IMG/VR virus record: IMGVR_UViG_3300028864_000112
Coordinates: 1-20,742 of that record
Reading direction: 5' to 3' (one strand)
Source: a virus
DNA length: 20,742 nt
Shown: one piece after another, positions 3,045 through 17,851 of the stretch
Layout: every line of letters starts with the position of its first letter
How positions within the stretch are numbered: position 1 is the first letter of the stretch
Notes under the pieces: model-generated
Seen by the model: only the letters and a program-made list of their open reading frames with translations
Databases searched by the model: none
What the model was told of the DNA's origin: nothing
Position numbers and translations under genes: made by a program

Positions 3045-3418
3045 TATGCTGCGTGTTCTAATGTTTTTGAAGTACTTGTATAGGAATCTTTTGTTGGTAA
3101 GATTACCAAGTTTCTTGCTGTCCAACTGAACACCTTAACTTCGGTGCTTGGTTTGCTTACTACCTGAATAATCTCTTCACCTAATTTTGCTTGAATTTTT
3201 AATATTGTATCAATATTAAAATTATGAGTACCTTTTAGCCATTTGCTGATTTCAGCTTCACTTTTTCCAAGAAGATTTGCAAGATCCTTTTGTTTCATAC
3301 CTTTCATTTCCAGAATATCGAAAATTCTGTCTGCAATGTCAATTGAAAAATCAACACTTTGTTTTATTTCCGGAGTAATAAGCTTTCTGCTAGCCTCCAT
3401 GATAGAGTTTCTTTTCAT
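3044..3418 (-). CDS. HigA-like antitoxin with chaperone-addiction tail
   Basis: This is a 124-residue protein with a helix-turn-helix of the XRE/HigA type (residues 35-80, core KQKDLANLLGKSEAEISKWL). It binds DNA and should neutralise the toxin encoded upstream. After the HTH comes a tail of about 37 residues with a hydrophobic, Trp-containing patch (VFSWTARNLVILP, 96-108). That is what a chaperone addiction (ChAD) segment looks like in HigA of TAC systems. The chosen ATG lies 10 nt after the toxin stop; the upstream in-frame extension overlaps the toxin gene and is unlikely. The gene is coupled to the SecB-like gene by TAATG. Likely autoregulated through its HTH. Confidence 0.82.
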   Translation of the reverse strand: MKRNSIMEASRKLITPEIKQSVDFSIDIADRIFDILEMKGMKQKDLANLLGKSEAEISKWLKGTHNFNIDTILKIQAKLGEEIIQVVSKPSTEVKVFSWTARNLVILPTKDSYTSTSKTLEHAA

Positions 3419-3428
3419 AATATTGTTG

Positions 3429-3920
3429 TTATTCCTCGTCTTGTATAGATAACGATAAATCACCATTTATGTTTTTGTCTATTATAAAATTTTTAAAGGT
3501 TTTTTCTTTTAATCTTAGCTCAAAATCAATCTTTTTGAGCGTTTCTACACATTTATCCAGATAGGCATCCTCGTTATATGTGGGAGTTGTTTTTAATCCT
3601 CCATTACCTAGAATCAGTATTTTGGGAGATACGCATATACAATATAGTCTTAAATTAGCAGTATCATAATGACTAGGAAGTTCTGCAGTTCTATCTTTCC
3701 ATTGTCCAGCATATCTAAAATGTCTTTCATCAATTCCATCTTTTATTATGCGTTCTAACCGATACATAATTGTTCCTATATCATTGGGATGAGATTCACT
3801 AAAAGACAGCAGAAAATTTTCAAACTCAGTATGAGTTTCATTCTCAAATTGAAATGAATAGAAGTTTACCTTTTCATATTCTTCCAAAAGTATAATGGAT
3901 AATTTTTTTATAGACTTCAC
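3429..3920 (-). CDS. HigB/RelE-like toxin of the TAC system
   Basis: This is the first gene of the toxin-antitoxin-chaperone operon. The protein has a region RTAELPSHYDTANLRLYCIC..ILILGNGGLKT, followed by an acidic stretch and a helix. This resembles the core beta strands of HigB/RelE-type mRNA interferases (a basic, aromatic strand, then a GGxKT-like turn). The open frame extends upstream to 3971, but that part carries the promoter, so translation must begin lower. The GTG at 3920 is the first in-frame candidate after the -7 box, giving 163 residues; a TTG about 33 nt further is the alternative. No Shine-Dalgarno helps decide. The fold assignment rests on context and pattern, not on an identified catalytic residue. 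Confidence 0.65.
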   Translation of the reverse strand: MKSIKKLSIILLEEYEKVNFYSFQFENETHTEFENFLLSFSESHPNDIGTIMYRLERIIKDGIDERHFRYAGQWKDRTAELPSHYDTANLRLYCICVSPKILILGNGGLKTTPTYNEDAYLDKCVETLKKIDFELRLKEKTFKNFIIDKNINGDLSLSIQDEE

Positions 3921-3937
3921 TTTTGAGTTAAGTTTTG

Positions 3938-3968
3938 CAAATGTACTACTTATTTTTATTAATACAAA
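3938..3968 (-). promoter_or_regulatory. Promoter of the TAC operon
   Basis: On the minus strand TTTG (3968-3965), 19 nt, then TACATTTG (3945-3938) is a full match to the Bacteroidota promoter pattern TTTG-N19-TAnnTTTG. It lies immediately upstream of the toxin gene and sets the lower start codon. A second TACATTTG at 4037-4044 lacks a good -33 box. Confidence 0.75.
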
Positions 3969-4138
3969 CAAATCGTCAATTATTTAATCAAAAAAAGCAA
4001 TATGAAAATTTCATACGAATTATCAATTTTGAAGTTGCAAATGTAAGATTAATTATTTACAAAATAATAAGAAATCATACTCCAATTTTAAACATTGAAT
4101 TGAGTTCCTTCAGCACAACTAACCATAATACATCTTAC

Positions 4139-5446
4139 TTAAATATCAAAACCTCTATTTCCAAATCGATTAGGCCTATAATTAATCCCTAGATTTTTAT
4201 CAATCTCTTTATCTTTCTTATTGAACCAATCATGTATCTCCAGGTTATCTATAAAAAGTCGAAGTCGACTTGGATCCGATTTATCATTTTCGATTTTAGC
4301 GATCGAGTGTTCTGTTTCAAATCTACAGAAGTGTTGAGAAGAATAGATTTTACCTTTAAACTCAACCGGTTTAAAAGCGAGTATCTTTTTTGTCAATTCC
4401 TCTGAGAACTCAGCTAATCTACACAGTTTCTCAATAATGAATAAATCTCTAATACTTGGGACCATGTCATATATCTTTCTAAGTTCTTCGCGGAGCTTGT
4501 CAGCTGTGTTTTTATATTCAGTCTTTAGTGTATTGATACGGTTATTTAGTTGCCTGGCTTCATTCTTTAGATTTGTATTTTCGGCTTTCAATGTATCAAT
4601 CTCACGCTGTTGTTTTTTTAGTTTAGAACTATCAAATACTGAACCTATACCCTCCATGGCCGAAGTAGCGACATTAACCGCAACACTCTTCATCTTGTCA
4701 GTTTTGATCTCCCGTTTAATTTTCATTAGTTCACCAGTCACTTGATCTTGTTGGTGAAGCAAACTACCAATATTGTTTTGCAGGCCGTCTGTTTGCGACA
4801 GCAATTCACGGTAATACTGCGATGTTGATATATGCTTAGCTTCTGAGCCGTCAATTCCTCGTTCTAGCCCATACTTATGCATGGATTCAGAATAGCTGTT
4901 TTGGTATTCTTTGAGCTTAAGTCGAGTCATTATATCATCTGCGCAAAGACGAACGGTACCAATACTTTTCTTGTTGTATTTTTTCTTTGGGGTAGATTGT
5001 TCTTGCTTGGCCTTTCTTCTTTCTCCGGTAGTAATGGGTACTATAGTGGCATGTAAATGCGGTGTTGATTCATCTAAGTGAAGTACCGCGGATACAACAT
5101 TATCCTTACCATAGGTTCTATTTAGCCACTCAATATTGTCATTGCACCAATCTTCAAGCCGGCCGGCCGATTCTATTTCCTTCATTTTATCAGGACTACC
5201 GGTAAGTAAAATTCTAATCGCTCGAACCTGAGTCTTTGATATCTTTCTGGAAATACCTGCATTATCTATTCTGTGTTGAATTGCTTGTGAGCGACTCGCG
5301 ACCCCTTCAGGGAACATTATAAGTTCTTTGTTTAGATGAGTGCGTAGAGGGTCGGCATTCGCAGGTGATATAGTTCTTTCAATATGCATTGACATTCCAG
5401 TATCAGCCCCGGAGGCTTTTTCTAAGTGGAGAACAGCGTAGGCCAT
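4139..5446 (-). CDS. MobV-family relaxase (Mob/Pre)
   Basis: This is a 435-residue protein that should nick oriT and pilot the DNA during conjugal mobilisation by a helper transfer system. The N-terminus (MAYAVLHLEKASG, then MHIERT) is typical of MobV proteins. The metal-binding and catalytic motif HLDESTPHLHA lies at 123-133, with H123, E126, H130 and H132 visible. Residues 215-250 and 275-327 are predicted coiled coil by heptad-like Leu/Ile spacing, and a basic patch (KKKYNKKS) follows the catalytic domain. No type IV secretion genes are present, so transfer would depend on another conjugative element. The frame is intact and full length for the family. It follows the candidate oriT and DUF3853 gene, as in Bacteroides mobilisable units. 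Confidence 0.93.
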   Translation of the reverse strand: MAYAVLHLEKASGADTGMSMHIERTISPANADPLRTHLNKELIMFPEGVASRSQAIQHRIDNAGISRKISKTQVRAIRILLTGSPDKMKEIESAGRLEDWCNDNIEWLNRTYGKDNVVSAVLHLDESTPHLHATIVPITTGERRKAKQEQSTPKKKYNKKSIGTVRLCADDIMTRLKLKEYQNSYSESMHKYGLERGIDGSEAKHISTSQYYRELLSQTDGLQNNIGSLLHQQDQVTGELMKIKREIKTDKMKSVAVNVATSAMEGIGSVFDSSKLKKQQREIDTLKAENTNLKNEARQLNNRINTLKTEYKNTADKLREELRKIYDMVPSIRDLFIIEKLCRLAEFSEELTKKILAFKPVEFKGKIYSSQHFCRFETEHSIAKIENDKSDPSRLRLFIDNLEIHDWFNKKDKEIDKNLGINYRPNRFGNRGFDI

Positions 5447-5502
5447 ATTGTTTTTTTAGCTTGGTTTTTGTATTTATAAAATCGTAGATTTGTCTTGGGT
5501 TT

Positions 5503-5600
5503 CCAAAGGGGTATTCCCCTTGGCTTAGTGGGCATTTTTAGTGTGGTGCAACGTAGCGTAAAGAAAATGCCCTAATAAGCTATGGCATTATTTATAATGC
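5503..5600. other. Candidate oriT: three hairpins upstream of the relaxase
   Basis: The 256-bp gap before the relaxase gene holds three inverted repeats. They are CCAAAGGGG / CCCCTTGG (5503-5511, 5516-5523, one bulged A), GGGCATTTT / AAAATGCCC (5530-5538, 5564-5572), and GCATTAT / ATAATGC (5585-5591, 5594-5600). The loop of the middle one contains TAGTGTGGTGCA (5539-5550), which recalls the TAGTGTG nic region of MobV plasmids such as pMV158, although it lies on the strand opposite to the relaxase gene. Position and structure fit oriT; the nick site is a guess. Confidence 0.55.
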
Positions 5601-5702
5601 TCTTACTTATGCTCATTGTTATATTTTTTTGGTTGTAAATTTGTTGTGTTCCCCTAATTTAGATTATTGTTCATTATTATTTCAATCGCTATATTGAATT
5701 TT

Positions 5703-5984
5703 TTATCCAAGTAATTCAATTGCTAGCTGAGCATCTATGACGATTATTTTACCTACTTCTGTTATAGCATTGTCTATTTTACCACTTTTTATAATGTCAA
5801 AAGCCGTAATCATACTACAACCTACGAGTTTAGAGATTCCAAAAACTCCAAAAACATATCTTTTGGAGGTTTCATATTTGGTAGAACTGTGGGAATCTTC
5901 ATTATTTATGTTACGTTGAAGAAACAAAAACTCCTCCCCTGTCATTTGCCAAAGTGGCATTTGCTTTAATTCATCAATATTCAT
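5703..5984 (-). CDS. DUF3853-type DNA-binding protein, copy 1 (mobilisation side)
   Basis: This is a 93-residue protein. Residues 44-92 (FGVFGISKLVGCSMITAF, then SGKIDNAITEVGKIIVI) form an excisionase-like winged helix: a helix-turn-helix that picks a site, followed by a short wing. Proteins of this family are frequent in Bacteroides mobilisable elements next to mob and replication genes. It is clearly paralogous to the protein at 16371-16673. It lies upstream of the candidate oriT and relaxase on the same strand, so a role in relaxosome formation or in controlling mob expression is plausible but inferred. Confidence 0.72.
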   Translation of the reverse strand: MNIDELKQMPLWQMTGEEFLFLQRNINNEDSHSSTKYETSKRYVFGVFGISKLVGCSMITAFDIIKSGKIDNAITEVGKIIVIDAQLAIELLG

Positions 5985-6047
5985 TTATTCCAGTATTACG
6001 ATTAATCAATAGCCTTGTACCATGGCTTTATTAATGTTCGAACGCTG

Positions 6048-6055
6048 CAAAAATA
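6048..6055 (-). promoter_or_regulatory. Candidate -7 box of the DUF3853/mob region
   Basis: Minus-strand TATTTTTG fits TAnnTTTG about 64 nt before the DUF3853 start. The palindrome GTTCGAAC (6036-6043) follows directly and could be an operator. No convincing -33 box is visible. Confidence 0.35.
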
Positions 6056-6096
6056 GGTTGGAATGAACCTGGTTAGTAGATGGAAATTTTCAAAAC

Positions 6097-6137
6097 AAAA
6101 AAGTTCTATTTCTATGATAATCACAGAAATAGAACTT
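6097..6137 (-). terminator. Terminator of the 304-aa gene
   Basis: A perfect 13-bp stem, AAGTTCTATTTCT (6101-6113) with AGAAATAGAACTT (6125-6137), is followed on the minus strand by TTTTTTG and TTTT. It lies 52 nt past the stop codon at 6189 and separates that gene from the mobilisation module. Confidence 0.85.
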
Positions 6138-6188
6138 GCTAAAGATTTAAAAACATGGTTTTAAATTGGTAAGAGATGGTAAATAGAA

Positions 6189-7103
6189 CTATATGACATA
6201 GTTTTTAAACATTTCATTTACATTTTCTGAAAAGAACTTATCTGCATCTGTCGCATTTTTACTTTCAACATCCCTATATCTTGAATAATAATTAGATTCG
6301 TCTTTATCAAGCTTATGGAGTATTACACTAATCCAATTATTCCTCACCTCTTTGTCTTTAATACAACTTGAAAATTTATGTAGAACATAATAAGCTCTTT
6401 TTATTGAGGATTTTTCAATTTTCAAATTCGAATTTAATTGCATTAGATTTATAGATTTGTAGAATTCTAATTCTGTCATACTTTCAAAAATAACCCCATT
6501 ACCTAGTTTATACACTTCGAAAACTATACCCATTGAAAAATACGGAGCTAAAGCTGAGTTATCAATGAATGACTTATACCTCTCATCTGATTTAAAATTA
6601 TTGTTTATCTCATTCAATAGGTATTTACAGAAAACATAAATCTCAAAATGATAGTCATTTAATATAAATCCATACTGACTATAAAATGTTGATTTATAAT
6701 AAGCATCTCTACCTGGCATCTCCATGTCCATACCTAAATAATTTTTCAGCATTACATTTGTTTCTGAATAGTATTCAGGGTGCCTTGATCTGTACGTATC
6801 CAGCATAAGTTGTTCTCGGTTATACTGCCTAAAGAATTTTTTATGTTTTTCATATAGTTGTACAATTTCAGTTGCAGTATCTTTAAGTCCTGTCAAAATT
6901 TCAACCCTCTCAGCACCTAAAACTTCTGGTGGATATTCTTCAATTATTTTCCACTCTGCAATACATCTCTCATATGCAGCACGAAAAATGTCTTGGGAGT
7001 CAAAATCAAAGTTAGTTCCTTCAGTGTTCAATTCTTTTACCCAATACTGTTTAATGTCAATTAGAATAAAATCTAACATTGACTGTACAATTTCTTTTCT
7101 CAT
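6189..7103 (-). CDS. Solitary 304-aa protein of unknown function
   Basis: This soluble protein is rich in Tyr, Phe, Asn and Glu, with no signal peptide, membrane segment or motif I recognise. Long amphipathic helical stretches alternate with aromatic clusters (for example YFSMGIVFEVYKLGNGVIF around residues 190-208). The gene stands alone between two strong terminators, with its own -7 box, TACATTTG, 30 nt before the ATG. It sits at the junction of the tail genes and the mobilisation genes, which is a typical place for an independently acquired cargo gene. Function unknown. Confidence 0.75.
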   Translation of the reverse strand: MRKEIVQSMLDFILIDIKQYWVKELNTEGTNFDFDSQDIFRAAYERCIAEWKIIEEYPPEVLGAERVEILTGLKDTATEIVQLYEKHKKFFRQYNREQLMLDTYRSRHPEYYSETNVMLKNYLGMDMEMPGRDAYYKSTFYSQYGFILNDYHFEIYVFCKYLLNEINNNFKSDERYKSFIDNSALAPYFSMGIVFEVYKLGNGVIFESMTELEFYKSINLMQLNSNLKIEKSSIKRAYYVLHKFSSCIKDKEVRNNWISVILHKLDKDESNYYSRYRDVESKNATDADKFFSENVNEMFKNYVI

Positions 7104-7132
7104 TTTATTTATAGTTAATAATTAATAATCTG

Positions 7133-7140
7133 CAAATGTA
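7133..7140 (-). promoter_or_regulatory. -7 box of the 304-aa gene
   Basis: Minus-strand TACATTTG matches TAnnTTTG 30 nt upstream of the ATG. A TTG lies 22 nt further up, longer than the usual 19-20. The box sits directly after the tail-operon terminator, giving the gene its own transcription unit. Confidence 0.5.
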
Positions 7141-7150
7141 ATAAATGCAA

Positions 7151-7192
7151 AAAAAACAGCCGCAATAATTTTACATTACTGCGGCTGTTTTT
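7151..7192 (-). terminator. Terminator of the tail-hub operon
   Basis: The stem AACAGCCGCA (7155-7164) with TGCGGCTGTT (7180-7189) is extended by AT pairs towards the loop. A runs on the left and T runs on the right make it work in both directions. It lies about 83 nt past the stop of the gpD-like gene; nothing else is visible in that gap. Confidence 0.85.
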
Positions 7193-7275
7193 AATAATCT
7201 TATAGAATAAAAATACTTATTAAACTTACACCGGCAAAGCATTGCTTATTTCAGGTGCATTTCGTTTATAGAATT

Positions 7276-8373
7276 TCATTCATTTGCTTCTTGGGTATCT
7301 ATCTGTACCGTTTCTTCTTTGGTAGGTAATGGTTTGCCAACTCTTGGAACTCGCTTTGGTTTCGGAATAGTACCAGTTTTCCTAATTTCAAGACTAGTAG
7401 TATATGCAGATCCACCTGATATTTTATGGGTACTGGTTACTATATGGTATTTCCCGCTAGCTAAGCCGAATCCGGTTAGATCAAAGTTCACACCGGCAAC
7501 TAATAATGGATCACCTTGAAATTCATCTAGCGTACCACTCTCTTTGAATTTATTTTTATTCCAAAGCCCGGCTTTTACTTTCGCCTCTGCTGTATGTACA
7601 TTATTAGCTTTACCGCTCAATATGTGAATGTCAAGCACATCATTATTCAAGATATCAGTCACTTCACTCTTTATTACTTTCCCTTTCTTTGGGTCCCGCC
7701 TTGAAAATGAAGCCGCAGCATAGGTATCATAGGTTTTATTAGTCATTGAATAATTTCCAATATCTGTCTTATCAATTTCCATTACACTTGGTGCATTATC
7801 AAGTGTATAATAATCAATAAAGACAAGATTATTACCTTTAACTGAAAACAGGAACCCATATTCTTTAGCTAACTCTGATAAAAATGATAAATCAGTTTTA
7901 TTCTCTTGTGTTTTTCGGTCAATATTTATGGCCGATAACTTGATACTGGAATTATCAACCAATTTAAAGCCATGTTTATTGCAGAAGAATATTGCAACTT
8001 GCTTCAAAGTCATTTTTTCAAATGCTTTATTATTTCTTGTCCGCAACGCTTTATTTATTCCTGTAGAAATTGTCTTCATTTCTATTATATCAGGCATCCC
8101 TGATAAAGTAATTTCATCTACTTGGAAAATACCACAGTCAATCAATTGATCACCATACCCAATAAATGCTTGAATTGTATCACCCTCTACCGGGTACCAT
8201 TCTTCACTCCACACACCTGAAGTATTATCAAAAGTCAATGTACATTCATCGCTTGCACCCTCTTCGTGATCTGTATACGTTATGGACGATAGATATTTAT
8301 CCACTGTTTTTGCAATATCCTTGTTATTCCAAATTACTTTAACGACTGTTTTTTTTGCAATTTCTTCCATCAT
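7276..8373 (-). CDS. Phage tail hub, late control D (gpD) family
   Basis: This is a 365-residue protein of the gpD/gp27/VgrG hub family, which joins the tail tube to the tail tip of contractile-tailed phages. The N-terminal part (ITYTDHEEGASDECTLTFDN, then a region with VEGDTIQAFIGYG and CGIFQVDEI) matches the first hub barrel. The central part (IDRKTQENKTDLSFLSELA, residues ~150-170) is the conserved segment of the D family. The length is usual for the family and the frame is intact. It is the last gene of a four-gene operon read from the repressor-controlled region at 9322-9439. P2-like D genes normally follow the tape measure gene, and here they do, but with the regulatory region between. 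No tube, sheath or spike gene is nearby. Confidence 0.85.
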   Translation of the reverse strand: MMEEIAKKTVVKVIWNNKDIAKTVDKYLSSITYTDHEEGASDECTLTFDNTSGVWSEEWYPVEGDTIQAFIGYGDQLIDCGIFQVDEITLSGMPDIIEMKTISTGINKALRTRNNKAFEKMTLKQVAIFFCNKHGFKLVDNSSIKLSAINIDRKTQENKTDLSFLSELAKEYGFLFSVKGNNLVFIDYYTLDNAPSVMEIDKTDIGNYSMTNKTYDTYAAASFSRRDPKKGKVIKSEVTDILNNDVLDIHILSGKANNVHTAEAKVKAGLWNKNKFKESGTLDEFQGDPLLVAGVNFDLTGFGLASGKYHIVTSTHKISGGSAYTTSLEIRKTGTIPKPKRVPRVGKPLPTKEETVQIDTQEANE

Positions 8374-8392
8374 ATTTTACATTTAAGTGTTT

Positions 8393-8737
8393 TTAATCTA
8401 AATCTTTAGTAATCCCCTTTATTGTTTCTGAAATTTCACTATAAAACCATTGGTGTCTATTTGCAACGATTGTTATTCGCAAAACATTATCTAAAAGGGA
8501 ACATATCTTATCTTCAAAAGGATCATCGCGAAACTTCACTTTAATTCTATTTATTTCGTTGATAATATCCCTTCCATTAAAAAGAGCAAACTCCGATAAT
8601 TCTTCTAACCCATCACAAATAATATTCTTTATATTCACTGTTGCTGTCTCTTTATTTCCATATGAACTTCCCAATACAACAGCCCCAATACCGCTAAAAG
8701 CCTCAACAAGATTTCCTTTTAATACATTTGACTCCAT
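8393..8737 (-). CDS. Unknown 114-aa protein in the tail-hub operon
   Basis: This small acidic soluble protein has a glycine-rich stretch near its N-terminus (AFSGIGAVVLGSSYGNKETA, residues 13-32), followed by mostly helical sequence and a Trp-containing end. It lies 19 nt upstream of the gpD-like gene and 24 nt downstream of the winged-helix gene, in one operon. I do not recognise the family. By position it could be a small tail protein or a regulator. Confidence 0.6.
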   Translation of the reverse strand: MESNVLKGNLVEAFSGIGAVVLGSSYGNKETATVNIKNIICDGLEELSEFALFNGRDIINEINRIKVKFRDDPFEDKICSLLDNVLRITIVANRHQWFYSEISETIKGITKDLD

Positions 8738-8761
8738 AATATTTCCTTTGATTAATGTGTG

Positions 8762-9043
8762 TTATTTTTTTACTTTCATTTTCCAAAATGGATACTGTAT
8801 TTCAGCAGCCATCAAATCGCACTCTGATACTTTATATTCGCGAACAGTTTGTTTACCGTTCCACCTCTCATACACTTTTATAAGTCCGTCCTTTGACCAC
8901 TGTGTAATATTTCTCTGCCTGTAATGCTCAAAAGCTGCATTTTCAGAGATAAAAAGCGTTTTGGGTCTATTCATAATTGACTCCAAATAAATTGCTGTTT
9001 TGCGAGCTATTATATCAGCTTCGCGTGCTAGTAATCCGTCCAT
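8762..9043 (-). CDS. Small winged-helix/excisionase-like protein
   Basis: This is a 93-residue protein. Residues 33-75 (FISENAAFEHYRQRNITQWSK, then GLIKVYERWNGKQTVREYKV) read as a MerR/excisionase-type helix-turn-helix with a wing: an aromatic helix, a recognition helix before SKDGLIK, and a beta hairpin. It starts 2 nt after the stop of the upstream 77-aa gene. A DNA-binding protein as the second gene after a repressor-controlled promoter suggests a Cro-, Xis- or activator-like role, which is inference. Confidence 0.6.
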   Translation of the reverse strand: MDGLLAREADIIARKTAIYLESIMNRPKTLFISENAAFEHYRQRNITQWSKDGLIKVYERWNGKQTVREYKVSECDLMAAEIQYPFWKMKVKK

Positions 9044-9045
9044 AT

Positions 9046-9279
9046 TTAATTATTTATTATTGAAAGTTTCTGTTTCGACCAAAACTGTATGAATTTTGCT
9101 TCACCACAATTCGACTTATATCGAAGTGCTATAGTAGAATATTTCTCTGCTATTTGGTAATCTTTAATAATATAAAACCATACTCTTGCCATTTGCAAAT
9201 ATGCACTATATGAAATTTCATCAAGATTCATTATTGTTTCTGTTTCCTGGCAGTTAGCGTCTATATTTCTTATTCCCAT
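9046..9279 (-). CDS. Unknown 77-aa protein, first gene of the repressor-controlled operon
   Basis: This small protein carries a helical segment (YSAYLQMARVWFYIIKDYQIAE) that recalls a single tetratricopeptide-like helix pair, but no repeat is present. The ATG at 9279 is preferred over an in-frame TTG two codons upstream; a later ATG (MNLDEIS) is possible. It lies directly downstream of the minus-strand promoter opposite the repressor gene, the usual position of the first early gene. Confidence 0.5.
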   Translation of the reverse strand: MGIRNIDANCQETETIMNLDEISYSAYLQMARVWFYIIKDYQIAEKYSTIALRYKSNCGEAKFIQFWSKQKLSIINN

Positions 9280-9317
9280 ATTCAAACATTAATTATATTG
9301 TTATACATTATTATTAT

Positions 9318-9439
9318 GGCACAAATATACTGCTATATAATATATAAACAGAGACTAATAAGTTAATAATTATCACTACATGATATATTTAACAACAAGT
9401 TATACTGCTGTAATGTATATAGCATTATCTTTGCTATAA
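9318..9439. promoter_or_regulatory. Divergent operator-promoter region of the repressor
   Basis: The 177-bp gap separates the plus-strand repressor from the minus-strand operon. A minus-strand promoter reads TCTG-N19-TATATTTG (-7 at 9322-9329). The plus-strand -7 box TATCTTTG is at 9426-9433, embedded in the inverted repeat TATAGCA (9418-9424) / TGCTATA (9432-9438). TGCTATA also occurs at 9331-9337, in the spacer of the minus promoter, and a related block beginning TATACTGCT occurs at 9326 and 9401. This is what a lambda-like switch with repeated operators would look like. Confidence 0.6.
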
Positions 9440-9456
9440 ATTAATATAATATAAAT

Positions 9457-9750
9457 ATGGAAAACAGAATTAAAGAAGTCCTAAAAAACAAGGGAATAAG
9501 CGTTGGGAGCTTAGCCGAAAAGGTGGGGATTACGCAGCCAAATATGTCAAATATAATAAATGGAAAAAATAATCCGGCGATTGAAACACTCGAGAAAATT
9601 GCATTAGCATTAGAAGTATCAATCTCTGAACTATTGGAAACAAAAACAGAGCTGTATGGTGTTGTATTATGGAAGAATAAGGCTTACCGGATAGATAACG
9701 AAATGGCATTAAAGCAATTGTACAATGATTATTTCGCAGAGAAACAATGA
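9457..9750 (+). CDS. CI-like XRE repressor
   Basis: This 97-residue protein is the only intact plus-strand gene of the element. Residues 4-60 are an XRE helix-turn-helix (SVGSLAEKVGITQPNMSNII). The short C-terminal part (LYGVVLWKNKAYRI, 66-79) is shared by many Bacteroidota phage and element repressors and may form a dimerisation strand pair. No LexA-like protease domain is present, so RecA-driven self-cleavage is unlikely and induction must be by another route. It is divergent from the 77-aa gene and should hold the tail-hub operon, and perhaps the element, silent. Its end converges on the tape measure gene. Confidence 0.85.
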   Translation: MENRIKEVLKNKGISVGSLAEKVGITQPNMSNIINGKNNPAIETLEKIALALEVSISELLETKTELYGVVLWKNKAYRIDNEMALKQLYNDYFAEKQ

Positions 9751-9773
9751 TTCAAAGTATCATTGTTTCTCTG
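9737..9773. terminator. Hairpin between the converging repressor and tape measure genes
   Basis: A perfect 15-bp stem, CAGAGAAACAATGAT (9737-9751) with ATCATTGTTTCTCTG (9759-9773), has a 7-nt loop. Its left arm covers the last codons and stop of the repressor gene. There is no long T run on either side, so termination is plausible rather than certain; the hairpin may also protect the transcript ends. Confidence 0.55.
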
Positions 9774-9799
9774 TTCAACATTAACCACCCAATTTAAAA

Positions 9800-11524
9800 T
9801 CATTTATTATAAGAAACCCTTAGATCATTCTTAAATGACCCTTTTACAATATTTGTAATCTCATCCTTATGTTTCTGAAGCATTTTTTTAAAGCTATCAA
9901 CGTCTCCACTATTTCCACCATTTATATTTACATTATATGTATAATTTAAAGCTGGAGAATTTTGTGTGTTCTTTGTTGTAGATATTTTATTATCAATCTT
10001 TGATTGATTACTTGAATAAATACTTTCAACCTTGGATTTATTTTTAACTTGTATAGCAGCTTTTTCATTATTATGTATACCTGATTTTTCAGCAGCTAGT
10101 ATTTTAGAATAGGTAGGCTGAATTGATTGAACCAACGTTACACTTTTACGCATTGCATTCATTTTAGCATCATAACCACTCAATGCTTTTACTCCTTTTA
10201 ATGCTTCGCTACCTGCTGCTGAAAACTTTCCTTTAAAGAGTAATCCTATTGCTCGACCCAAAGACCCCAAACCAGTTATAATACCTTTTATCCTATCAAC
10301 TACATAATCTTTCAAAATTCCACCAAATCCTTTTACAACTTCCCAGATAGTTTTAATTACAGCTCTGAAAGTTTCAAACTTTTTCCAACATACTGCTAAA
10401 ACGGCAACTAATGTACCTATTGCCAAAACGATCCATCCAATTGGACTAGCTATAAATGCCGCATTCCATAACCATTGGGCTGCTGTTACAATTCCAGTCC
10501 AAACAGACGAAATTTTCTGCGCAGCTATCATTTTATAATAACCAGAAGTAACTCCCCACATAACCAATTTAATGGCTTTAAAAACAGACACCACAGTTTG
10601 AACAGTTTTACTAATAACTACTACAGTTTTTATTGCAGTACCAATTCCCCAAATAGCTCCACCAACTATAGCTGCTATTTTAGCCCAATGCAATAATTGA
10701 GAAACTAAATCTCTATTGTTTGTTATCCAATCTGTAACATTATTTACAATCTCTAGAACTTTATCTGCTAAACGAGTAAATGCCGGCATCACGGCCAAGG
10801 CAATTTTATTTTTTGTGCCTTCCATCTTATCCGTCATTTCACGCAACTTTTTATTAAATTCAGCTGCTTTAGCTATACCTTCGTCATCGATCATTTCACC
10901 GTTCTTTTTCATTTCATCGGTTAATTCTGCTATTGACTTACTGCCTTTATTCAGCATAGGTATCATATCCTTACCACTTTTCCCAAACAGCAACATTGCC
11001 AAAGCTGTTTTTTTGGGACCATCAGCTGCTGACTTAAATTTATCGGATATTTCTTTTAATACCTGGGTAGTAGGCTTTAATTTTCCAGTACTATCTTTTG
11101 CACTTATTCCAGCAGCTTTAAATATTGCTATTGACGATTTTTGACCCATTGCGGCCGTCACCATTGTTTTTGACAACTTTGCTACTCCTGATTCAAATCT
11201 ATCACTTTCCATTCCAGCCCTTGAAGCTGCTTTTGCCCATACTTGGAACCCTTCATTCGACATTCCAATTTTTTGGCTTGATCGCGCAATCTCTTTAGCG
11301 TGAGTAGCTGTTGTTTTTGTCATTGCAAACAGAGAAGTTGCTACCGCAACACCTGATCCAATAACAGACATACCTATTTTTTGTAGGTTGCCGCCCATTT
11401 TGTCATATTTTTTTTGGAAATTACTCATTGATTTAAGTGATTTCCCCATTGCCCGGTCAACAACCATAGAAATTTTATCTGTCGCAGATAAAATAAGCCC
11501 TAATTTCATTGGTGATTCAGCCAT
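9800..11524 (-). CDS. Phage tail tape measure protein
   Basis: This 574-residue protein would set tail length and lie inside the tail tube. The N-terminal part (MKLGLILSATDKISMVVDRA, then long Ala/Lys/Ser-rich helices) and the motif ALAMLLFGKSGKDMIPMLN (residues ~180-198) are typical of TP901/P2 gpT-like tape measures. Several hydrophobic segments fall between about 280 and 380, including SPIGWIVLAIGTLVAVLAV. The C-terminus is polar with a short asparagine-rich part. At about 0.15 nm per residue it would specify a tail of roughly 85 nm. The gene follows the E/E'-like chaperone as in P2, under its own late-type promoter at 11550-11577. It is intact. Confidence 0.92.
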   Translation of the reverse strand: MAESPMKLGLILSATDKISMVVDRAMGKSLKSMSNFQKKYDKMGGNLQKIGMSVIGSGVAVATSLFAMTKTTATHAKEIARSSQKIGMSNEGFQVWAKAASRAGMESDRFESGVAKLSKTMVTAAMGQKSSIAIFKAAGISAKDSTGKLKPTTQVLKEISDKFKSAADGPKKTALAMLLFGKSGKDMIPMLNKGSKSIAELTDEMKKNGEMIDDEGIAKAAEFNKKLREMTDKMEGTKNKIALAVMPAFTRLADKVLEIVNNVTDWITNNRDLVSQLLHWAKIAAIVGGAIWGIGTAIKTVVVISKTVQTVVSVFKAIKLVMWGVTSGYYKMIAAQKISSVWTGIVTAAQWLWNAAFIASPIGWIVLAIGTLVAVLAVCWKKFETFRAVIKTIWEVVKGFGGILKDYVVDRIKGIITGLGSLGRAIGLLFKGKFSAAGSEALKGVKALSGYDAKMNAMRKSVTLVQSIQPTYSKILAAEKSGIHNNEKAAIQVKNKSKVESIYSSNQSKIDNKISTTKNTQNSPALNYTYNVNINGGNSGDVDSFKKMLQKHKDEITNIVKGSFKNDLRVSYNK

Positions 11525-11549
11525 ATAATTTGATAGTTAGTTCATTAAT

Positions 11550-11577
11550 TGAAGTCTTACAAAAATAAACTACATAA
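11550..11577 (-). promoter_or_regulatory. Late-type promoter of the tape measure gene
   Basis: A 28-bp block differs by only two bases from the block at 12225-12252 upstream of the tail chaperone gene. It contains minus-strand TATTTTTG (11567-11560), a -7 match, 35 nt before the ATG. Conservation extends on both sides of the -7 box (TTATGTA upstream, TAAGA downstream), suggesting recognition by an additional factor. Confidence 0.65.
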
Positions 11578-11675
11578 GTTTCAACTATTAAAATTATATA
11601 CGTCAATCCTGTTTCTGTTTCGCCTTTGTTTATTTGGGCTCCTACCCAGGGTATATGCTAGGTTATGAATCCACG

Positions 11676-11702
11676 AAAAAAGCCTTACATTACTGCAAGG
11701 CT
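11676..11702 (-). terminator. Terminator after the tail chaperone frameshift product
   Basis: On the minus strand AGCCTT, a 10-nt loop and AAGGCT are followed by six T residues. The stem begins 1 nt after the stop codon of the frameshifted chaperone, at 11704. It explains why the tape measure gene needs its own promoter. The stem is short. The 100 bases between it and that promoter show nothing else. Confidence 0.65.
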
Positions 11703-11703
11703 C

Positions 11704-11874
11704 TTATAAGTTTGTTACCGCAACAGGCTTTACTGCTTCCAGTTCCAATTCATACAGTTTGTATGCGCTTTCAAGGTATTCTGTAAACCTATCCACATAC
11801 ATGTTTTCTACTTCTGCTATCCCCGACGCTGTATAGTGTGCCAAAAACACAATATCTTCAGTCGGGATTATACG
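11704..11874 (-). CDS. E'-like extension of the tail chaperone, -1 frame (56 codons)
   Basis: Reading on in the -1 frame from the AAC codon of the slippery site gives an open frame of 56 codons (RIIPTEDIVFLAHYTASG to VAVTNL) ending in TAA at 11706-11704. It has no start codon of its own near its beginning and is acidic and helical. It is placed exactly where E' of P2 and T of lambda follow E and G. Translation by frameshifting would give a 145-residue fusion (89 residues from the zero frame plus 56). The tape measure gene follows, as these chaperones require. Confidence 0.75.
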   Translation of the reverse strand, partial: RIIPTEDIVFLAHYTASGIAEVENMYVDRFTEYLESAYKLYELELEAVKPVAVTNL

Positions 11875-11880
11875 TTTTTT
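11822..11880 (-). promoter_or_regulatory. Programmed -1 ribosomal frameshift signal
   Basis: The heptamer A AAA AAC (11880-11874, minus strand) is in phase with the zero frame (TTA AAA AAC) two codons before the chaperone stop. After a 7-nt spacer comes a stem CCCGAC (11866-11861) with GTCGGG (11827-11822). Its loop can form an inner stem, TGTG with CACA. A slippery heptamer, a 5-9 nt spacer and a downstream structure are the three parts of a classic -1 signal. Confidence 0.78.
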
Positions 11881-12140
11881 AATTCGTCCTCATCAATAAA
11901 TAACGAAGATAACAACTCTAAATCATCATCATACAAATCGAGTATATCTTCCAACACTACATTTTTGCCGTTAAATTGTACTTTAGTAGCAAACTGGGCG
12001 TATGTAGTTAAATACTCTTTACCCTTTGGCTGATTACCTGCATTTGCTAAATCGCGAACTGTAGCACGTTTCTTAGTTGCTACTACTCCATTACTAAGCG
12101 TTACCGATTCCGGTAATGCCTTTTCTTCTTTTTCTAACAT
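11868..12140 (-). CDS. Tail assembly chaperone, P2 gpE-like (zero-frame product)
   Basis: This 90-residue acidic protein has the pattern LSNGVVATKKRATVRDL, then KVQFNGKNVVLEDILDL and an acidic Leu-rich end, shared by small tail assembly proteins of the P2 gpE / Mu gp41 type. These act with a frameshifted longer form to load the tape measure protein before the tube assembles around it. The last codons TTA AAA AAC form the slippery site. The gene sits just before the tape measure gene, as in P2, and has its own promoter about 85 nt upstream. Confidence 0.8.
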   Translation of the reverse strand: MLEKEEKALPESVTLSNGVVATKKRATVRDLANAGNQPKGKEYLTTYAQFATKVQFNGKNVVLEDILDLYDDDLELLSSLFIDEDELKNV

Positions 12141-12224
12141 GTTGTCAATATTAAATGTGAATACTTATAAATTTTAATAACTCCTGATACAAATCAAAGA
12201 AATTCATTTCTTATATGTAAAATA

Positions 12225-12252
12225 TGAACTCTTACAAAAATAAAATACATAA
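12225..12252 (-). promoter_or_regulatory. Late-type promoter of the tail chaperone gene
   Basis: This 28-bp block is identical at 26 positions to 11550-11577. It carries minus-strand TATTTTTG (12242-12235) as the -7 box, 94 nt before the ATG, leaving a long leader. The pair of near-identical blocks marks a shared regulon for the tail genes. Confidence 0.65.
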
Positions 12253-12410
12253 TCTCCAATAGTGAAAAATAAGTACGTTTAACCAGTTTCAATCTCAAAT
12301 ACAAATCCCATTATTTTCAAAGAATATTACTTTTCAGCAATTATTATGTAGGTTTTGGGATTATTGAAAATTCATCATACACCCCAGTTTTAATAGTAAA
12401 TATGAACTTA

Positions 12411-12533
12411 TGCGTATGTAAATAAAAAAAAATAAAAGTGCGTACATAAATGCGTACATGTAATTAATCATATACGCATTTTCGCGCGCGCGACTTAATT
12501 GTGAAAATACAACAAAAAAAAATCAAGTGCGTA
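12411..12533. repeat. TGCGTA iterons with a CG run, candidate origin
   Basis: Within the gene-free stretch 12253-12652, TGCGTA occurs at 12411, 12439, 12451 and 12528, three of them as TGCGTACAT, with one inverted copy, TACGCA, at 12473-12478. Poly-A stretches alternate with them, and a CGCGCGCGCG run lies at 12483-12492, striking in AT-rich DNA. Iterons plus AT-rich tracts near a DnaB/DUF6291 replication operon suggest a replication origin or an initiator/repressor binding zone. The rest of the gap shows only a 10-bp palindrome, AACAATTGTT, at 12620-12629. Confidence 0.5.
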
Positions 12534-12652
12534 CATAAAAAAAAACATGTAACTAGATCGAAAACGGGAGTGTAGCCCACTGCTTTCAATAAAGGCTCAC
12601 AGTACCTTTTGTTAACAACAACAATTGTTCATAGGTCAAGATATACATATTC

Positions 12653-13138
12653 TTACTTTAATCCCCTCAATCTTTTAGTCTTAATCATGAATCGTTGCAA
12701 ATCAATTATTTTAGTATTTTGATTTATTTGATCCGTTGTAAATCCTTTCCTTCTTAACTTTTTCTTTACGTAGTTATCTTTTAGTAATTTCGTTTCATTG
12801 ATGTTCTGAGTCCTTCGCTTCTCAGTATAGCCTTCATAACCTTTGTAATTGAGTTTGTTATATTGCCGTTCCTTCTCCTTCTTCTCTTCAACCGTTAATC
12901 TTACAATTGGGTGTTCAATCCTATAGGCTATTAGTTCATTCACCCTTCGTTCATTCACCCTCTTTCTTTGAGCATAAACTTTATCAGGATTATTATTCTT
13001 CCACTCCTTTTGTTTGTCAGCATCTCTTTCTCTGTTTCTCTCTCTATAGAGCTTCTCCCGTTCGGCAATTTTAGCCTTATTTTTAATCCGATATTGTTGT
13101 TCATACAATTTCCGTTTGCTTTTGTCTTTATATGGCAT
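12653..13138 (-). CDS. Highly basic 161-aa phage-type protein
   Basis: This very Lys/Arg-rich protein begins MPYKDKSKRKLYEQQYR, a start seen in small phage nuclease-associated and DNA-binding proteins, and has a long charged helical middle. The last 50 residues (INETKLLKDNYVKKKLRRKG, then IIDLQRFMIKTKRLR) look like a compact conserved domain. No HNH Cys/His pattern is present, so nuclease activity is not supported. It starts 7 nt after the stop of the gpZ-like gene and is the last gene of that operon. Nucleic-acid binding is likely; function unknown. Confidence 0.65.
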   Translation of the reverse strand: MPYKDKSKRKLYEQQYRIKNKAKIAEREKLYRERNRERDADKQKEWKNNNPDKVYAQRKRVNERRVNELIAYRIEHPIVRLTVEEKKEKERQYNKLNYKGYEGYTEKRRTQNINETKLLKDNYVKKKLRRKGFTTDQINQNTKIIDLQRFMIKTKRLRGLK

Positions 13139-13145
13139 GGTAGTA

Positions 13146-13781
13146 TTATTTAGTTAACTTATTTATTTCATTTTGAAGCAATGCACGCAGCCTCGGTGGA
13201 AGGTTTGTTTTTACATATGTAACTGTTCGCTTCTGAATATCTTTATTGCTTACCATTGTCATTGGGGACGGTCCTCTCATTTCTGTTATACGTGCCTTAC
13301 CCTTTTCAGTTTTCACTTTATCATTAATAAAAGTTTTACCTTTATACAAACCCTGAGCATAAATCCCTTTATGTCCACTTGCCATAGTAGCAATGAATGC
13401 ATGTTTAAGAAGCTGATTTCGCCCACGTTTAATTTCAATAGTAACTCCGCCGGTACGTTTCTTCGGTGATTTGCTTTTGTTATTGTCTTTATTCTTAAAC
13501 CCAACCATTGGCACCGGTTTATAAGAATAACTAACTGCTGCATACAATCCTTCAACTGTACCACTTGCTGGCTTAAGAGTCGCCATACGATTAAGATATT
13601 TATTGTTAATCGTATATTCTTTTTTTACATCTTTCTTGACTTGGGAGATCACTCTTCTAGCTGTTATGTTTAGAGATAACGCAGTGGTTTTCAATATCAC
13701 TTTTTTCGACAGTTTATTTGCAAATTCTTGCTGTATTGACTTAAGTGATTTCTTACCTTCGATTGTCATACTAAATTTCAT
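13146..13781 (-). CDS. Minor tail protein Z (gpZ) family
   Basis: This 211-residue basic protein resembles the prophage minor tail protein Z family, which acts in tail completion and tail-head joining. The pattern is an N-terminal amphipathic helix, ALSLNITARRVISQVKKDV (residues ~34-52), a SGTVEGLYAAVSYSYKPVPM strand region, and a C-terminal GPSPMTMVSN followed by a helix. It has a strong Shine-Dalgarno (AAAGGAG, 5 nt before the ATG), uncommon in Bacteroidota and a phage-like trait. In phage genomes gpZ precedes the tail tube gene; here it runs in the replication operon and no tube gene follows. Confidence 0.72.
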   Translation of the reverse strand: MKFSMTIEGKKSLKSIQQEFANKLSKKVILKTTALSLNITARRVISQVKKDVKKEYTINNKYLNRMATLKPASGTVEGLYAAVSYSYKPVPMVGFKNKDNNKSKSPKKRTGGVTIEIKRGRNQLLKHAFIATMASGHKGIYAQGLYKGKTFINDKVKTEKGKARITEMRGPSPMTMVSNKDIQKRTVTYVKTNLPPRLRALLQNEINKLTK

Positions 13782-13805
13782 TTTTACTCCTTTCTAATAA
13801 TTATG

Positions 13806-14033
13806 TTAATTATGGTTCGACTTATCTAAAAGTACATTATTTATCTCCTCGTTTTGATACCATTCGTATATTTTCGTTATAACATCCAATTGCTCTATTG
13901 TCAAAGATTTTAAGTTTAGCTTACCGTTAATAATCTCGATTTCTATAACTTTTCCAGATGTACATCTAACTGCTGTTATTATCAAATTACCAGCATCATT
14001 CACTTTGTATGTTATATCATAAGTTGGGACCAT
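13806..14033 (-). CDS. Unknown 75-aa protein
   Basis: This small protein has a beta-rich first half (TYDITYKVNDAGNLIITAVR, then GKVIEIEIINGKLNLK) and a helical second half ending in hydrophilic residues. The ATG at 14033 is preferred over an in-frame TTG ten codons earlier. It lies 49 nt after DnaB and 24 nt before the gpZ-like gene, in the same operon. Not recognised. Confidence 0.5.
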   Translation of the reverse strand: MVPTYDITYKVNDAGNLIITAVRCTSGKVIEIEIINGKLNLKSLTIEQLDVITKIYEWYQNEEINNVLLDKSNHN

Positions 14034-14082
14034 TCTGCTGCATATTTTTTGTAAATTTCTCAAGTTATATCATCTTCATATT

Positions 14083-15459
14083 TTAAAACGGATCATCATC
14101 AGTTGACGAACTATTATTTAAAGGAATAGCGTTAATATTTTCAATCGGAGAAAAGAGTGTTATCTCTTTTTTGAAGGAACATATAAACCTAAGTAACCCT
14201 ATTGACCGACCTTTAGCAATGTCTATCATTGCTGTACCACTTGTATCTATGTGTGAGAATGGTTCAGGATAATTCCGACCATATACTTCTGGCCGATAAA
14301 CAAACATGACAATATCGGCAGCCTCAGCTATCTGTCCAGAATCACGTAACCGATTAAGGTTGGGTACCGGGTTTTGAGAATCTCTGTTTAACTGCGACAA
14401 TGCAATTATCCAAATATCCAGTTCTTTTGCCAGGTTCTTCAATCTACGTGCAACGTCAGCCATTTGTTGCTCCTTATTTACACCTTTCATGTTGACGTTT
14501 AATATCTGTAAGTAATCAACAATTGCCCCATCGATATCTTTCTTAATTTTCATTGTCCGGATAGATGCAATAATTGCGTCGATATTCGAAGTACTTCTTT
14601 CATCAAAATATATTTCTGACTTACAAACCCTAGTTAGATTTTTATCAATGACTTCGATTCGCTGAGAATCTAGCTTAGAGTATAGTATTTGATTTGACGG
14701 GATATGTGTCTCCATTGATATTAATCGAGCCGCTAACTGCACATTACGCATTTCTAAAGAATAAATAGCCATACGACTGCCGGCTTGACCCATATTTCTG
14801 ACAAGAGATAACATCAGAGCGGTTTTCCCCTGACTGGACTCCCCAGCTATAATAATGAGGTCAGACTTTTGAAAGCCGCCTGAAATTTGATTCAATTCTC
14901 GAAATCCGGTATCGCTTCCCGTTAAGGTACCGCAACTACTTAAATTTAAATCTATCTGCTTATAAACATCGTCAGCCACATCTGATAAACTTTTGAGGGC
15001 GTTTTGAGGTATATCATATGTTTTTTCTAATAATTCTCGGGCACGTTCAATAACTTCAGTTATATCTTCGTCTTCATTGAAACAACTGTTAGAAACATAC
15101 GAACCAATTTCAAAAAACTTCCTACGGATGCACTTGTCAAAAAGAACCGCGGCATGTTGGTACACGTCATAGGTAGAATAAAGGCTCATTTTAGTGAGTT
15201 CGTAGGCATCTGCATTAGCATTAGCTTTCCTCATTTCATTTAGAACCATCATTGAATCAGGGCGATCTCCACGTTCTGCAATAGATTTAATTGCTAAGAA
15301 TATTTCTTTATGAAAGTCGTTGTAAAAACAATCAACAGTAAGTAAATCTTTTACTTCTGAATATGAATTGCGTTCATTCATAAGGGTACCTATAACAAGC
15401 AATTCGGACTCTTTAGCGTATGGGAGCTGTCGGTCAGCTATATTAGATTTTTGTGCCAT
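14083..15459 (-). CDS. dnaB: Replicative DNA helicase, DnaB type
   Basis: This 458-residue hexameric helicase would unwind DNA at a fork of element replication. The N-terminal domain (residues ~10-110) is followed by a linker and a RecA-like core. In the core are Walker A GESSQGKT (206-213), YSLEM (233-237), the Walker B AIVDYLQI (312-319), the LSQLNR sensor (354-359) and LRDSGQIAEAADIVMFVYR near the end. All key residues are present. It overlaps the DUF6291-type gene by 17 nt, so the two are coupled. The C-terminus ends in a Ser/Asp-rich tail. Phage and satellite DnaB copies usually serve their own origin, which may be the iteron region at 12411-12533. Confidence 0.95.
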   Translation of the reverse strand: MAQKSNIADRQLPYAKESELLVIGTLMNERNSYSEVKDLLTVDCFYNDFHKEIFLAIKSIAERGDRPDSMMVLNEMRKANANADAYELTKMSLYSTYDVYQHAAVLFDKCIRRKFFEIGSYVSNSCFNEDEDITEVIERARELLEKTYDIPQNALKSLSDVADDVYKQIDLNLSSCGTLTGSDTGFRELNQISGGFQKSDLIIIAGESSQGKTALMLSLVRNMGQAGSRMAIYSLEMRNVQLAARLISMETHIPSNQILYSKLDSQRIEVIDKNLTRVCKSEIYFDERSTSNIDAIIASIRTMKIKKDIDGAIVDYLQILNVNMKGVNKEQQMADVARRLKNLAKELDIWIIALSQLNRDSQNPVPNLNRLRDSGQIAEAADIVMFVYRPEVYGRNYPEPFSHIDTSGTAMIDIAKGRSIGLLRFICSFKKEITLFSPIENINAIPLNNSSSTDDDPF

Positions 15460-16066
15460 TATTTTTGAGCCAATTAAGAGTTGTTCTATAAACAGATGTA
15501 TATTTTTTTGTCAAGTCTTTTTTGTTGTTCATTTGTTCTAAGATATCCCAAATCTGTGTCTTTGAATAGATTCCGATAAGTTTTTCAAAATCAACAAATG
15601 TCAATTGCTGATCGAGTTTTGCAACATTTGGACAGTCTTTTCTAATTCGAATATTTAATTTTTCGAAATTTATTTGATTTTGTGATTTCTCTTTGCAAAC
15701 ATCATCAGTAACAGAAACATCATCAGATACAGTATCAGAAACAGTATCGGCTTTTTTGGGTTCTTGGGTTTCCTCTTGGGTTTCCAAATAACCAACTGGG
15801 ATATTTGGGTTATCTTTAGAGGGTCGACCTCCCTTTTGTCCGTTCAACCGATTTCGTTGTACTACGTTTTGATACTTGATTTTATCTCGATCAAATTGCT
15901 GGCGTATTGTTGCCCATATTATTTTAACCGCAACAGATGATATTTCAGAAACAACACCACTCGAATTATACTCAAATATCAAATCCAACAATAATGATTT
16001 ATCTTCGCAAGACAACAGCTGGATTGGTTCATAGAATGAATTGTAAAGGACGAAACTATCTTTCAT
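15443..16066 (-). CDS. DUF6291-type replication protein, possible helicase loader
   Basis: This 207-residue protein has an N-terminal domain (MKDSFVLYNSFYEPIQLLS, then IRQQFDRDKIKY and the basic QKGGRPSK, residues 1-83) of the DUF6291 type found in phage and element replication operons of Bacteroidota. A low-complexity acidic linker with repeated TVSD/DDVS (109-122) leads to a helical C-terminal domain (FVDFEKLIGIYSKTQIWDIL). The domain layout resembles replisome organisers and helicase loaders. The start overlaps the stop of the 101-aa gene as ATGA, and its end overlaps dnaB by 17 nt. A role as initiator or loader is inferred from context. Confidence 0.7.
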   Translation of the reverse strand: MKDSFVLYNSFYEPIQLLSCEDKSLLLDLIFEYNSSGVVSEISSVAVKIIWATIRQQFDRDKIKYQNVVQRNRLNGQKGGRPSKDNPNIPVGYLETQEETQEPKKADTVSDTVSDDVSVTDDVCKEKSQNQINFEKLNIRIRKDCPNVAKLDQQLTFVDFEKLIGIYSKTQIWDILEQMNNKKDLTKKYTSVYRTTLNWLKNNGTKI

Positions 16067-16368: not shown

Positions 16369-16370
16369 AA

Positions 16371-16673
16371 TTATCTCCTTCCTCCATTCTTTTGCCCAGC
16401 TAAAGATAACGCTAAATCTTTGTCAATTACAATCTTCCTACCTACTTGAGTAATGGCTTTATCAATCTTACCTGAAGATTTAATTTTATGTGCAGTGGCA
16501 TAGCAACAGTTAAATATACTTTGAATACCTTTTATCCCATATTCATAGTTCTTATCTTGATTGCTTGTAACTGGAGGCTTTTGAATAGTAGTATTTTCCA
16601 ATCCTTTTAATCTTTCATATTCTCTAACTGGAATAATTACACTAGGCTCTAAATTATTAATTTGATTATACAT
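16371..16673 (-). CDS. DUF3853-type DNA-binding protein, copy 2 (replication side)
   Basis: This is a 100-residue paralogue of the protein at 5703-5984. The shared part is GIKGIQSIFNCCYATAHKI and SGKIDKAITQVGRKIVIDKDLAL (residues ~45-91), an excisionase-like helix-turn-helix and wing. The N-terminal parts differ. It is the first gene of the replication operon, right behind the GGTCGGGTA repeat block, a plausible binding target. It could regulate the operon or act in initiation. Confidence 0.75.
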   Translation of the reverse strand: MYNQINNLEPSVIIPVREYERLKGLENTTIQKPPVTSNQDKNYEYGIKGIQSIFNCCYATAHKIKSSGKIDKAITQVGRKIVIDKDLALSLAGQKNGGRR

Positions 16674-17678: not shown

Positions 17679-17695
17679 AATAATCGGTTTTAGGC

Positions 17696-17785
17696 TTATT
17701 GATTTAGTAAAAAGGCAAAGTGCTTTTCAATTGTTTCTTTCCTTACTCCAGGGTGTCCACTATTACCGGCCCCCTTTCATATTCG
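17696..17785 (-). other. Short coding-like remnant with a homopolymer shift
   Basis: In the 173-bp gap between the paralogues, the minus strand reads GNSGHPGVRKETIEKHFAF followed by LLNQ and a stop at 17698-17696. An ATG (ATGAAAGGGGG) lies upstream but in a different frame; one G less in the five-G run would join it into a 27-codon frame. It may be a decayed small gene or chance. Confidence 0.25.
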
Positions 17786-17851
17786 TTTTGTCTTATTACG
17801 GCACTTATCAATTTCACAAGTAATAATTAGAGTTTTAATGACCAAATAAAG

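Follow-up and report, generated by a model that had tools for sequence, protein, structure and literature searches.

The IMG/VR record IMGVR_UViG_3300028864_000112, all of which was analysed here as one window of 20,742 nt, contains an integrated element of 20,376 bp (95-20483). We propose, with a probability of about three in four, that this element is a cos-packaged integrative phage satellite that supplies inner tail parts. Like a satellite, it lacks the complete set of virion genes; it joins a MobV mobilisation module to the phage tail genes Z, E/E', tape measure and D. The original prediction, a reading of the bare DNA letters, had left two options: a prophage reduced to a mobilisable island, or a satellite that remodels the tails of a helper with a tape measure, a chaperone and a hub. 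The second option is strongly favoured because of a cos-like site with its repeat words, late-type promoters, recurrence of the tail genes in other elements, purifying selection and the differing phage lineages to which the genes are closest. The exact 13-nt att repeats had been recognised correctly (Table 1). They put the element at 95-20483, so that the predicted span of 4139-16066 was too narrow, and the cos-like site at 12561-12609 had been overlooked.

Two further IMG/VR records hold the same element, with 100% protein identity over the parts covered and one exception at a contig edge (98-100%). Its host bacterium probably belongs to the Bacteroidota. No further complete element was found by a search with D of ≈ 990 genomes, from the groups around two host metagenome-assembled genomes (MAGs), or by a search of 395 genomes with the cos pattern described below.

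Putative packaging site and late-type promoters

Comparison of the window with its relatives at the DNA level gave two noncoding matches beyond the genes, one at the cos-like stretch and one at a putative promoter repeat. Positions 12525-12617 matched the gap between Z and TerS of the full phage L010 (79% over 94 nt, E = 6.5e-14). The Z-TerS gaps of phages G003, G008, G001 and G007 have in common AAAGGTACTGT followed by ≈ 28 bases and a C-rich stretch, and this type of arrangement is present at the corresponding place in three other elements, L013, L011 and L022. The window has a single occurrence of the pattern AAAGGTACTGT-N26..30-CNCCCNNTTT, and none of 100 shuffles contains it. Searching 2.9 million viral contigs retrieved it from 19: 10 full-phage contigs, where it lies beside TerS, 5 element contigs and 4 unrelated ones. 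Relaxing the pattern raised the number to 52 and added mostly unrelated matches.

Short repeat words lie beside the cosN-like site, in the place that cosB occupies in lambda. TACGCA occurs five times in the window and four to five times in phages L010, G003, L066 and L098. Element L022 has TCCGAA four times, and phages G001 and G007 have it five times; TCCGCA occurs five times in G008 and L111. None of the three words was found in elements L013 and L011. The position upstream of TerS, together with a GpA-type TerL, suggests that the site is a lambda-like cos. Packaging by a helper terminase matched to the element would require just such a grouping of the repeat words. Site and words together would give the element a DNA signal for helper packaging. 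Since the window has no TerS, it would depend on that of the helper.

The second noncoding match is a 66-nt repeat located upstream of both E and the tape measure gene, which recurs just upstream of the portal (head) operon of L010. The L010 copy matched it at 42 of 50 agreed positions, and other places reached ≈ 30. From its position and repetition, we infer that the repeat is a promoter. The tail genes of the element thus carry a sequence that probably drives the late genes of the helper. A terminator-like hairpin lies 3' of E', and the tape measure gene then has its separate promoter.

Tail genes, related elements and repeated capture

Profile matches identified Z, the tape measure and D, in agreement with the prediction that intact genes of these types and of the E/E' type are present. 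Z was about 77-78% identical to Z of L010, and D was about 79-80% identical to D of phage L005 and 74% to those of L007-L009. The D family profile also matched the pyocin R2 protein 6u5h (1.5e-13). The tape measure was 49% identical to that of L005. E (90 aa) is too divergent to give a convincing library match; it was recognised by its 58-64% identity to E of several full phages and by its slippery site. This site, A_AAA_AAC, is located 10 nt before the E stop codon, and a -1 shift adds an intact E' extension of 56 aa. The arrangement was kept in all six relatives checked, which suggests that the chaperone is working.

The full phages used here carry far more. L005 and L006 have a contractile-tail set plus capsid and portal, and L007-L009 also carry contractile-tail sets; the L010 contig shares 1,189 nt with L007 at 100% identity. 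We built hidden Markov models (HMMs) from these full-phage relatives and ran them on all six frames of the window. Nothing credible was obtained for portal, capsid/protease, decoration, neck A/B, TerS or TerL, or for sheath, tube, N, X, V, W, J, I, H and fibre. The strongest score came from the portal HMM (E = 0.003 on an 85-aa open reading frame, before correction for the number of models). The HMMs likewise ruled out a TerS. The predicted lack of capsid, portal, terminase, tube and sheath genes was thus borne out. It had also been suggested that the orphan genes might hide capsid, tube or packaging folds. The phage-family HMMs found no capsid, tube or terminase among them, and AF2 models of the orphans at 6189 (uninformative at pLDDT 44) and 12653 (helices only) gave no sign of capsid or terminase, no fold search having been run.

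Whether the same tail subset recurs without capsid genes had been named as a check, and L013, L011 and L022 do carry such subsets while lacking genes for head, sheath and tube. L013, of which L012 and L014 are overlapping copies, has Z, cos, a helix-turn-helix (HTH) protein, tape measure, D, an integrase, replication genes and a divergent repressor. It adjoins a gene resembling mnmE, and no relaxase is visible within its contig. L011 has Z, cos, an HTH protein and D, and upstream of Z (620-2121) a helicase-like gene and a VRR-NUC nuclease, a module unlike the DnaB of the window. L022, a MAG contig, has DnaB, cos, TerS, E, D and the start of Z; its TerS is 41-44% identical to phage TerS. In the four elements examined, which include the fragments L011 and L022, whose missing genes may lie outside the contigs, D, the cos-like site and Z were present in 4/4 (only the start of Z in L022), the tape measure in 2/4 and E in 2/4. 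L035 is only a partial candidate, its D being cut by the contig end. The HTH proteins of L013 and L011 resemble TerS of L010 and L022 at 20-24%, and that of L013 gave a 44% match to part of TerS of G008. This match and the position of the genes make it possible that both are TerS.

To address selection, we used the ratio of nonsynonymous to synonymous differences per site (pN/pS). Against the phage copies it was 0.15 for D and 0.19 for Z, with synonymous sites near saturation; between elements L013 and L011 the values were 0.18 and 0.22, respectively. Z and D are under purifying selection. The tape measure was less constrained (pN/pS 0.50). In the D tree, five elements were placed beside different phages, a minimum of four changes was forced, and a single element clade was rejected (approximately unbiased test, p = 9e-32). 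A single element clade was likewise rejected for Z (p = 6e-5). The D genes of the elements represent at least four separate captures. The nearest homologues also differ from gene to gene: those of Z and the promoter are in L010, those of D and the tape measure in L005 and those of E in L037/L030. Together, the trees and these differing affinities point to repeated capture and not to one prophage losing genes.

A full prophage of this phage type, in genome G001, measures 41,162 bp between 43-nt repeats, one of which is in a tRNA-Asn gene. Two copies of the element amount to 40,752 bp, or 99.0% of this length. Since no capsid-size-changing gene was recognised, packaging as a dimer is the simplest prediction.

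Table 1. Features of the window with their positions, strands and supporting evidence
Feature	Position	Strand	Evidence
tRNA-Ser (gga)	19..107	+	integration target
att core, left copy CCTTCCTCTCCGC	95..107	+	exact 13-nt repeat; last 13 bases (3' end) of tRNA-Ser
Candidate defence system PDC-M64, three-gene cargo	2619..3971 (2619-3125, 3044-3466, 3429-3971)	-	PADLOC 9e-10, 1e-36, 1e-37
MobV relaxase	4139..5446	-	motif HLDESTPHLHA; NCBIfam MobV equivalog 2.6e-64
oriT-like hairpin upstream of mobV	5497..5589	-	related to pBUN1 (9e-8) and B. finegoldii plasmid 36 (1e-5)
DUF3853 protein	5703..5984	-	Pfam 6.5e-26
Orphan downstream of D	6189..7103	-	no family; AF2 all-helical prediction, low confidence, pLDDT 44
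D, baseplate hub	7276..8373	-	phrog_52 2e-79
Orphan in D operon	8393..8737	-	no match
Small probable regulator, phage origin	8762..9043	-	84% identical to early gene of phage L010
Small protein	9046..9285	-	weakly similar to one in element L013
CI-like repressor	9457..9750	+	HTH_26 3e-15; 45% to repressor of element L013
Tape measure protein	9800..11524	-	phrog_8462 2e-57
Putative late-type promoter of tape measure gene	11550..11615	-	83% over 65 nt to L010 site, E = 3e-11
E and E' tail chaperone	11704..12140	-	-1 slippery site AAAAAAC at 11874-11880; E alone 11868-12140
Putative late-type promoter of E	12225..12290	-	76% to tape measure promoter
R-like repeats (cosB-like), five TACGCA words	12411..12535	-	no other 170-nt slice of the window has four or more
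cosN-like site AAAGGTACTGT-N28-CTCCC	12561..12609	-	DNA comparison with relatives, pattern search
Basic all-helical orphan between Z and cos-like site	12653..13138	-	AF2 pLDDT 80, helices only
Z, tail completion protein	13146..13781	-	phrog_27 (tail completion/Neck1) 6e-20; Pfam Minor_tail_Z 3e-8
DnaB-like replicative helicase	14083..15459	-	DnaB_C 2e-62
DUF6291 protein, probable replication accessory	15443..16066	-	Pfam 9e-21
DUF3853 protein, second copy	16371..16673	-	Pfam 6e-20
Tandem paralogue pair	16878..18736 (16878-17678, 17852-18736)	-	43-44% identical to each other
Tyrosine integrase	18939..20312	-	Phage_int_SAM_5 1.1e-5; adjoins right element end
att core, right copy CCTTCCTCTCCGC	20471..20483	+	exact 13-nt repeat

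Proposed life cycle, known systems and alternatives

We propose that the element is a satellite of temperate contractile-tailed phages of ≈ 41 kb that occur in Bacteroidota. When a helper phage becomes active, the element would excise and replicate with its own DnaB. The helper terminase would cut and package it at its copy of the helper cos, probably as a dimer (40.75 kb) in unmodified heads. The copies of the helper-type late promoter would switch on the E/E' chaperone and the tape measure, and Z and D would be made too. The resulting tails would be chimeric, with helper head, sheath, tube and fibres around satellite parts lining the DNA path. MobV and the oriT-like hairpin should offer a further route, conjugative transfer, whenever a conjugative helper is present.

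The closest known parallel in gene content comes from the phage-inducible chromosomal island-like elements (PLEs) of Vibrio cholerae. Work of March 2026 demonstrated that these build chimeric tails with a tape measure protein (TMP) and a hub of their own, and they encode a chaperone (PMC12987554). In the case of PLE11, the TMP and hub of the satellite enter the particles, the chaperone is encoded beside them, and most other tail parts are made by the phage (PMC12987554). PLE1, PLE4 and PLE11 are integrated, lack major capsid genes and encode a TMP, a tail assembly chaperone (TAC) and, in PLE11, a hub (PMC12987554). The window encodes the same trio; we do not file it as a PLE, the likeness being one of gene content. 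It belongs to another phylum, and its proposed helpers are temperate P2/Mu-like phages whereas that of PLEs is the virulent ICP1. It adds Z and a relaxase with an oriT-like site, and no capsid-remodelling gene was recognised in it. Its D and Z share 77-79% identity with those of phages, compared to 20% for TMP and TAC and 41% for the hub of PLE11 (PMC12987554). A Z family member of 80alpha is located inside the neck, where it contacts DNA and the tape measure; for lambda gpZ, binding to a DNA end was proposed (PMC11661146). Because the element combines the PLE-like trio with Z, of a family found at the DNA in the neck, it would supply parts along the DNA path.

Other satellites are more distant. 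Phage-inducible chromosomal minimalist islands (PICMIs) fill helper heads with concatemers and do not remodel capsids, which resembles the dimer proposed here (PMC10803314). However, they are confined to a minimal gene set of ≈ 6 kb at a fis site in Vibrionaceae, without identifiable packaging or virion genes (PMC10803314), whereas the present element measures 20.4 kb, is integrated at tRNA-Ser and has tail genes. With phage-inducible chromosomal islands (PICIs) and capsid-forming PICIs (cf-PICIs), for some of which putative tmp genes were reported (PMC12987554), the element and its relatives share an integrase, a repressor, a replication module and cos-type packaging, as well as TerS in L022 and possibly in L013 and L011. 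The cf-PICIs encode capsid and packaging genes and make their own heads, whereas the window shows no trace of such genes, and PICIs redirect packaging with their own TerS, which the window lacks.

The P2/Mu-like prophages of Bacteroidota (types L005, L010 and L023) have homologous Z, cos-like site, E, TMP, D and late promoter, but carry all the head, tail and terminase genes; the only one for which the two att ends are known measures 41.2 kb. With the MobV plasmids and nonreplicating Bacteroides unit (NBU)-type elements of Bacteroides, the element shares MobV (43% identity), a related oriT-like hairpin and tRNA integration. None of these is known to have a phage packaging site or tail genes.

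Several points weigh against our proposal. The element is known here from sequence alone, and its pairing with a helper in one cell is a prediction. It has no TerS of its own, unlike element L022; the relatives L011, L022 and L035 are partial contigs; and no single phage is closest for all parts. In addition, the tail proteins could interfere with helper tails instead: ill-fitting Z, TMP or D would then poison tail assembly and protect the host and would not be part of infectious particles. A mere subset of tail genes and the candidate defence cargo would fit this role, and tail-assembly inhibitors (Tai) exist in PICIs and P4-like elements (PMC11364771). We nevertheless consider such weapons unlikely. 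The proteins are full-length, with Z and D conserved like the phage copies, D remains close to its phage counterpart (79% in the window and 86-88% in L013), the retained E' frameshift suggests a working chaperone, and the TMP and hub of PLEs become part of particles.

Full-phage homologues of the tail genes, cos-like site and promoters would equally be present in a decayed P2/Mu-like prophage that had lost its head, sheath, tube and lysis genes and gained a mobilisation module. Yet we found neither credible remnants of other structural families nor degraded genes; those retained are intact, and purifying selection acts on Z and D. Moreover, E has a late-type promoter of its own, the element brings its own replication module, its integrase is unrelated, the retained genes are closest to different phages, and same-gene subsets recur in divergent elements derived from separate captures. 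This makes decay very unlikely. Hardly credible, finally, is the view that this is an ordinary NBU-like integrative mobilisable element, transferred solely by conjugation, in which the phage genes are accidental cargo. MobV with its related oriT-like hairpin, the DUF3853 proteins and integration into a tRNA gene would agree with it. Conjugation, however, would have no use for a packaging-type site with its matched repeat words or for late-type promoters; selection acts on Z and D, and L013 retains the phage parts with no relaxase visible in its contig.

A satellite that provides inner tail parts had been predicted to be a new type. Chimeric tails were already shown for PLEs, but independent recurrence around Bacteroidota phages, the added Z and a relaxase-oriT module in the same element look new when judged against the open-access literature. 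Before the PLE study of 2026, the view was that satellites use the tails of their helpers unaltered. For the wider proposition, that a group of satellites of Bacteroidota phages, independently of PLEs, replaces DNA-path tail parts by repeated capture and that one member exits via both cos and MobV-oriT, we see the odds as even. If true, separate captures of hub, Z and tape measure would mean that controlling the inside of the tail is a general strategy of satellites, and would help to explain its purpose. The element could gain by ejecting its DNA more efficiently, by entering further hosts or by harming the helper. With a relaxase next to cos, a single element would combine two transfer routes, and matched cos-like sites and repeat words could serve as a sequence test that pairs satellites with helpers.

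Other features of the element and its relatives

The relaxase matched the NCBIfam MobV family, and the predicted hairpin-rich region upstream of it is related to the corresponding stretch before mobV in two Bacteroides plasmids. The element thus has the relaxase and oriT of an integrative mobilisable element, the oriT by similarity only. A pMV158-type nick word, TAGTGTG, near mobV was dropped; the Bacteroides relatives do not have the word at that place. One of the closest MobV proteins is that of a Bacteroides finegoldii plasmid (L131), which encodes HamA of the Hachiman defence system near an integrase.

The CI-like repressor and DnaB replication gene were present as predicted. The basic orphan at 12653-13138 adjoins the cos-like site and may take part in packaging. 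A relative of the tandem paralogues was found in element L035. Beside the PDC-M64 genes lies a two-gene unit consisting of a small probable membrane protein (331-774) and a 310-aa protein (771-1703). Pfam, NCBIfam and PADLOC gave nothing convincing for this unit, which is possibly a defence pair.

Phage L010 carries, between TerL and portal (13809-16433), three related genes with SSGGFVFYDT- and GSRLCF-like motifs. They adjoin a reverse transcriptase-like gene and look like a diversity-generating retroelement.

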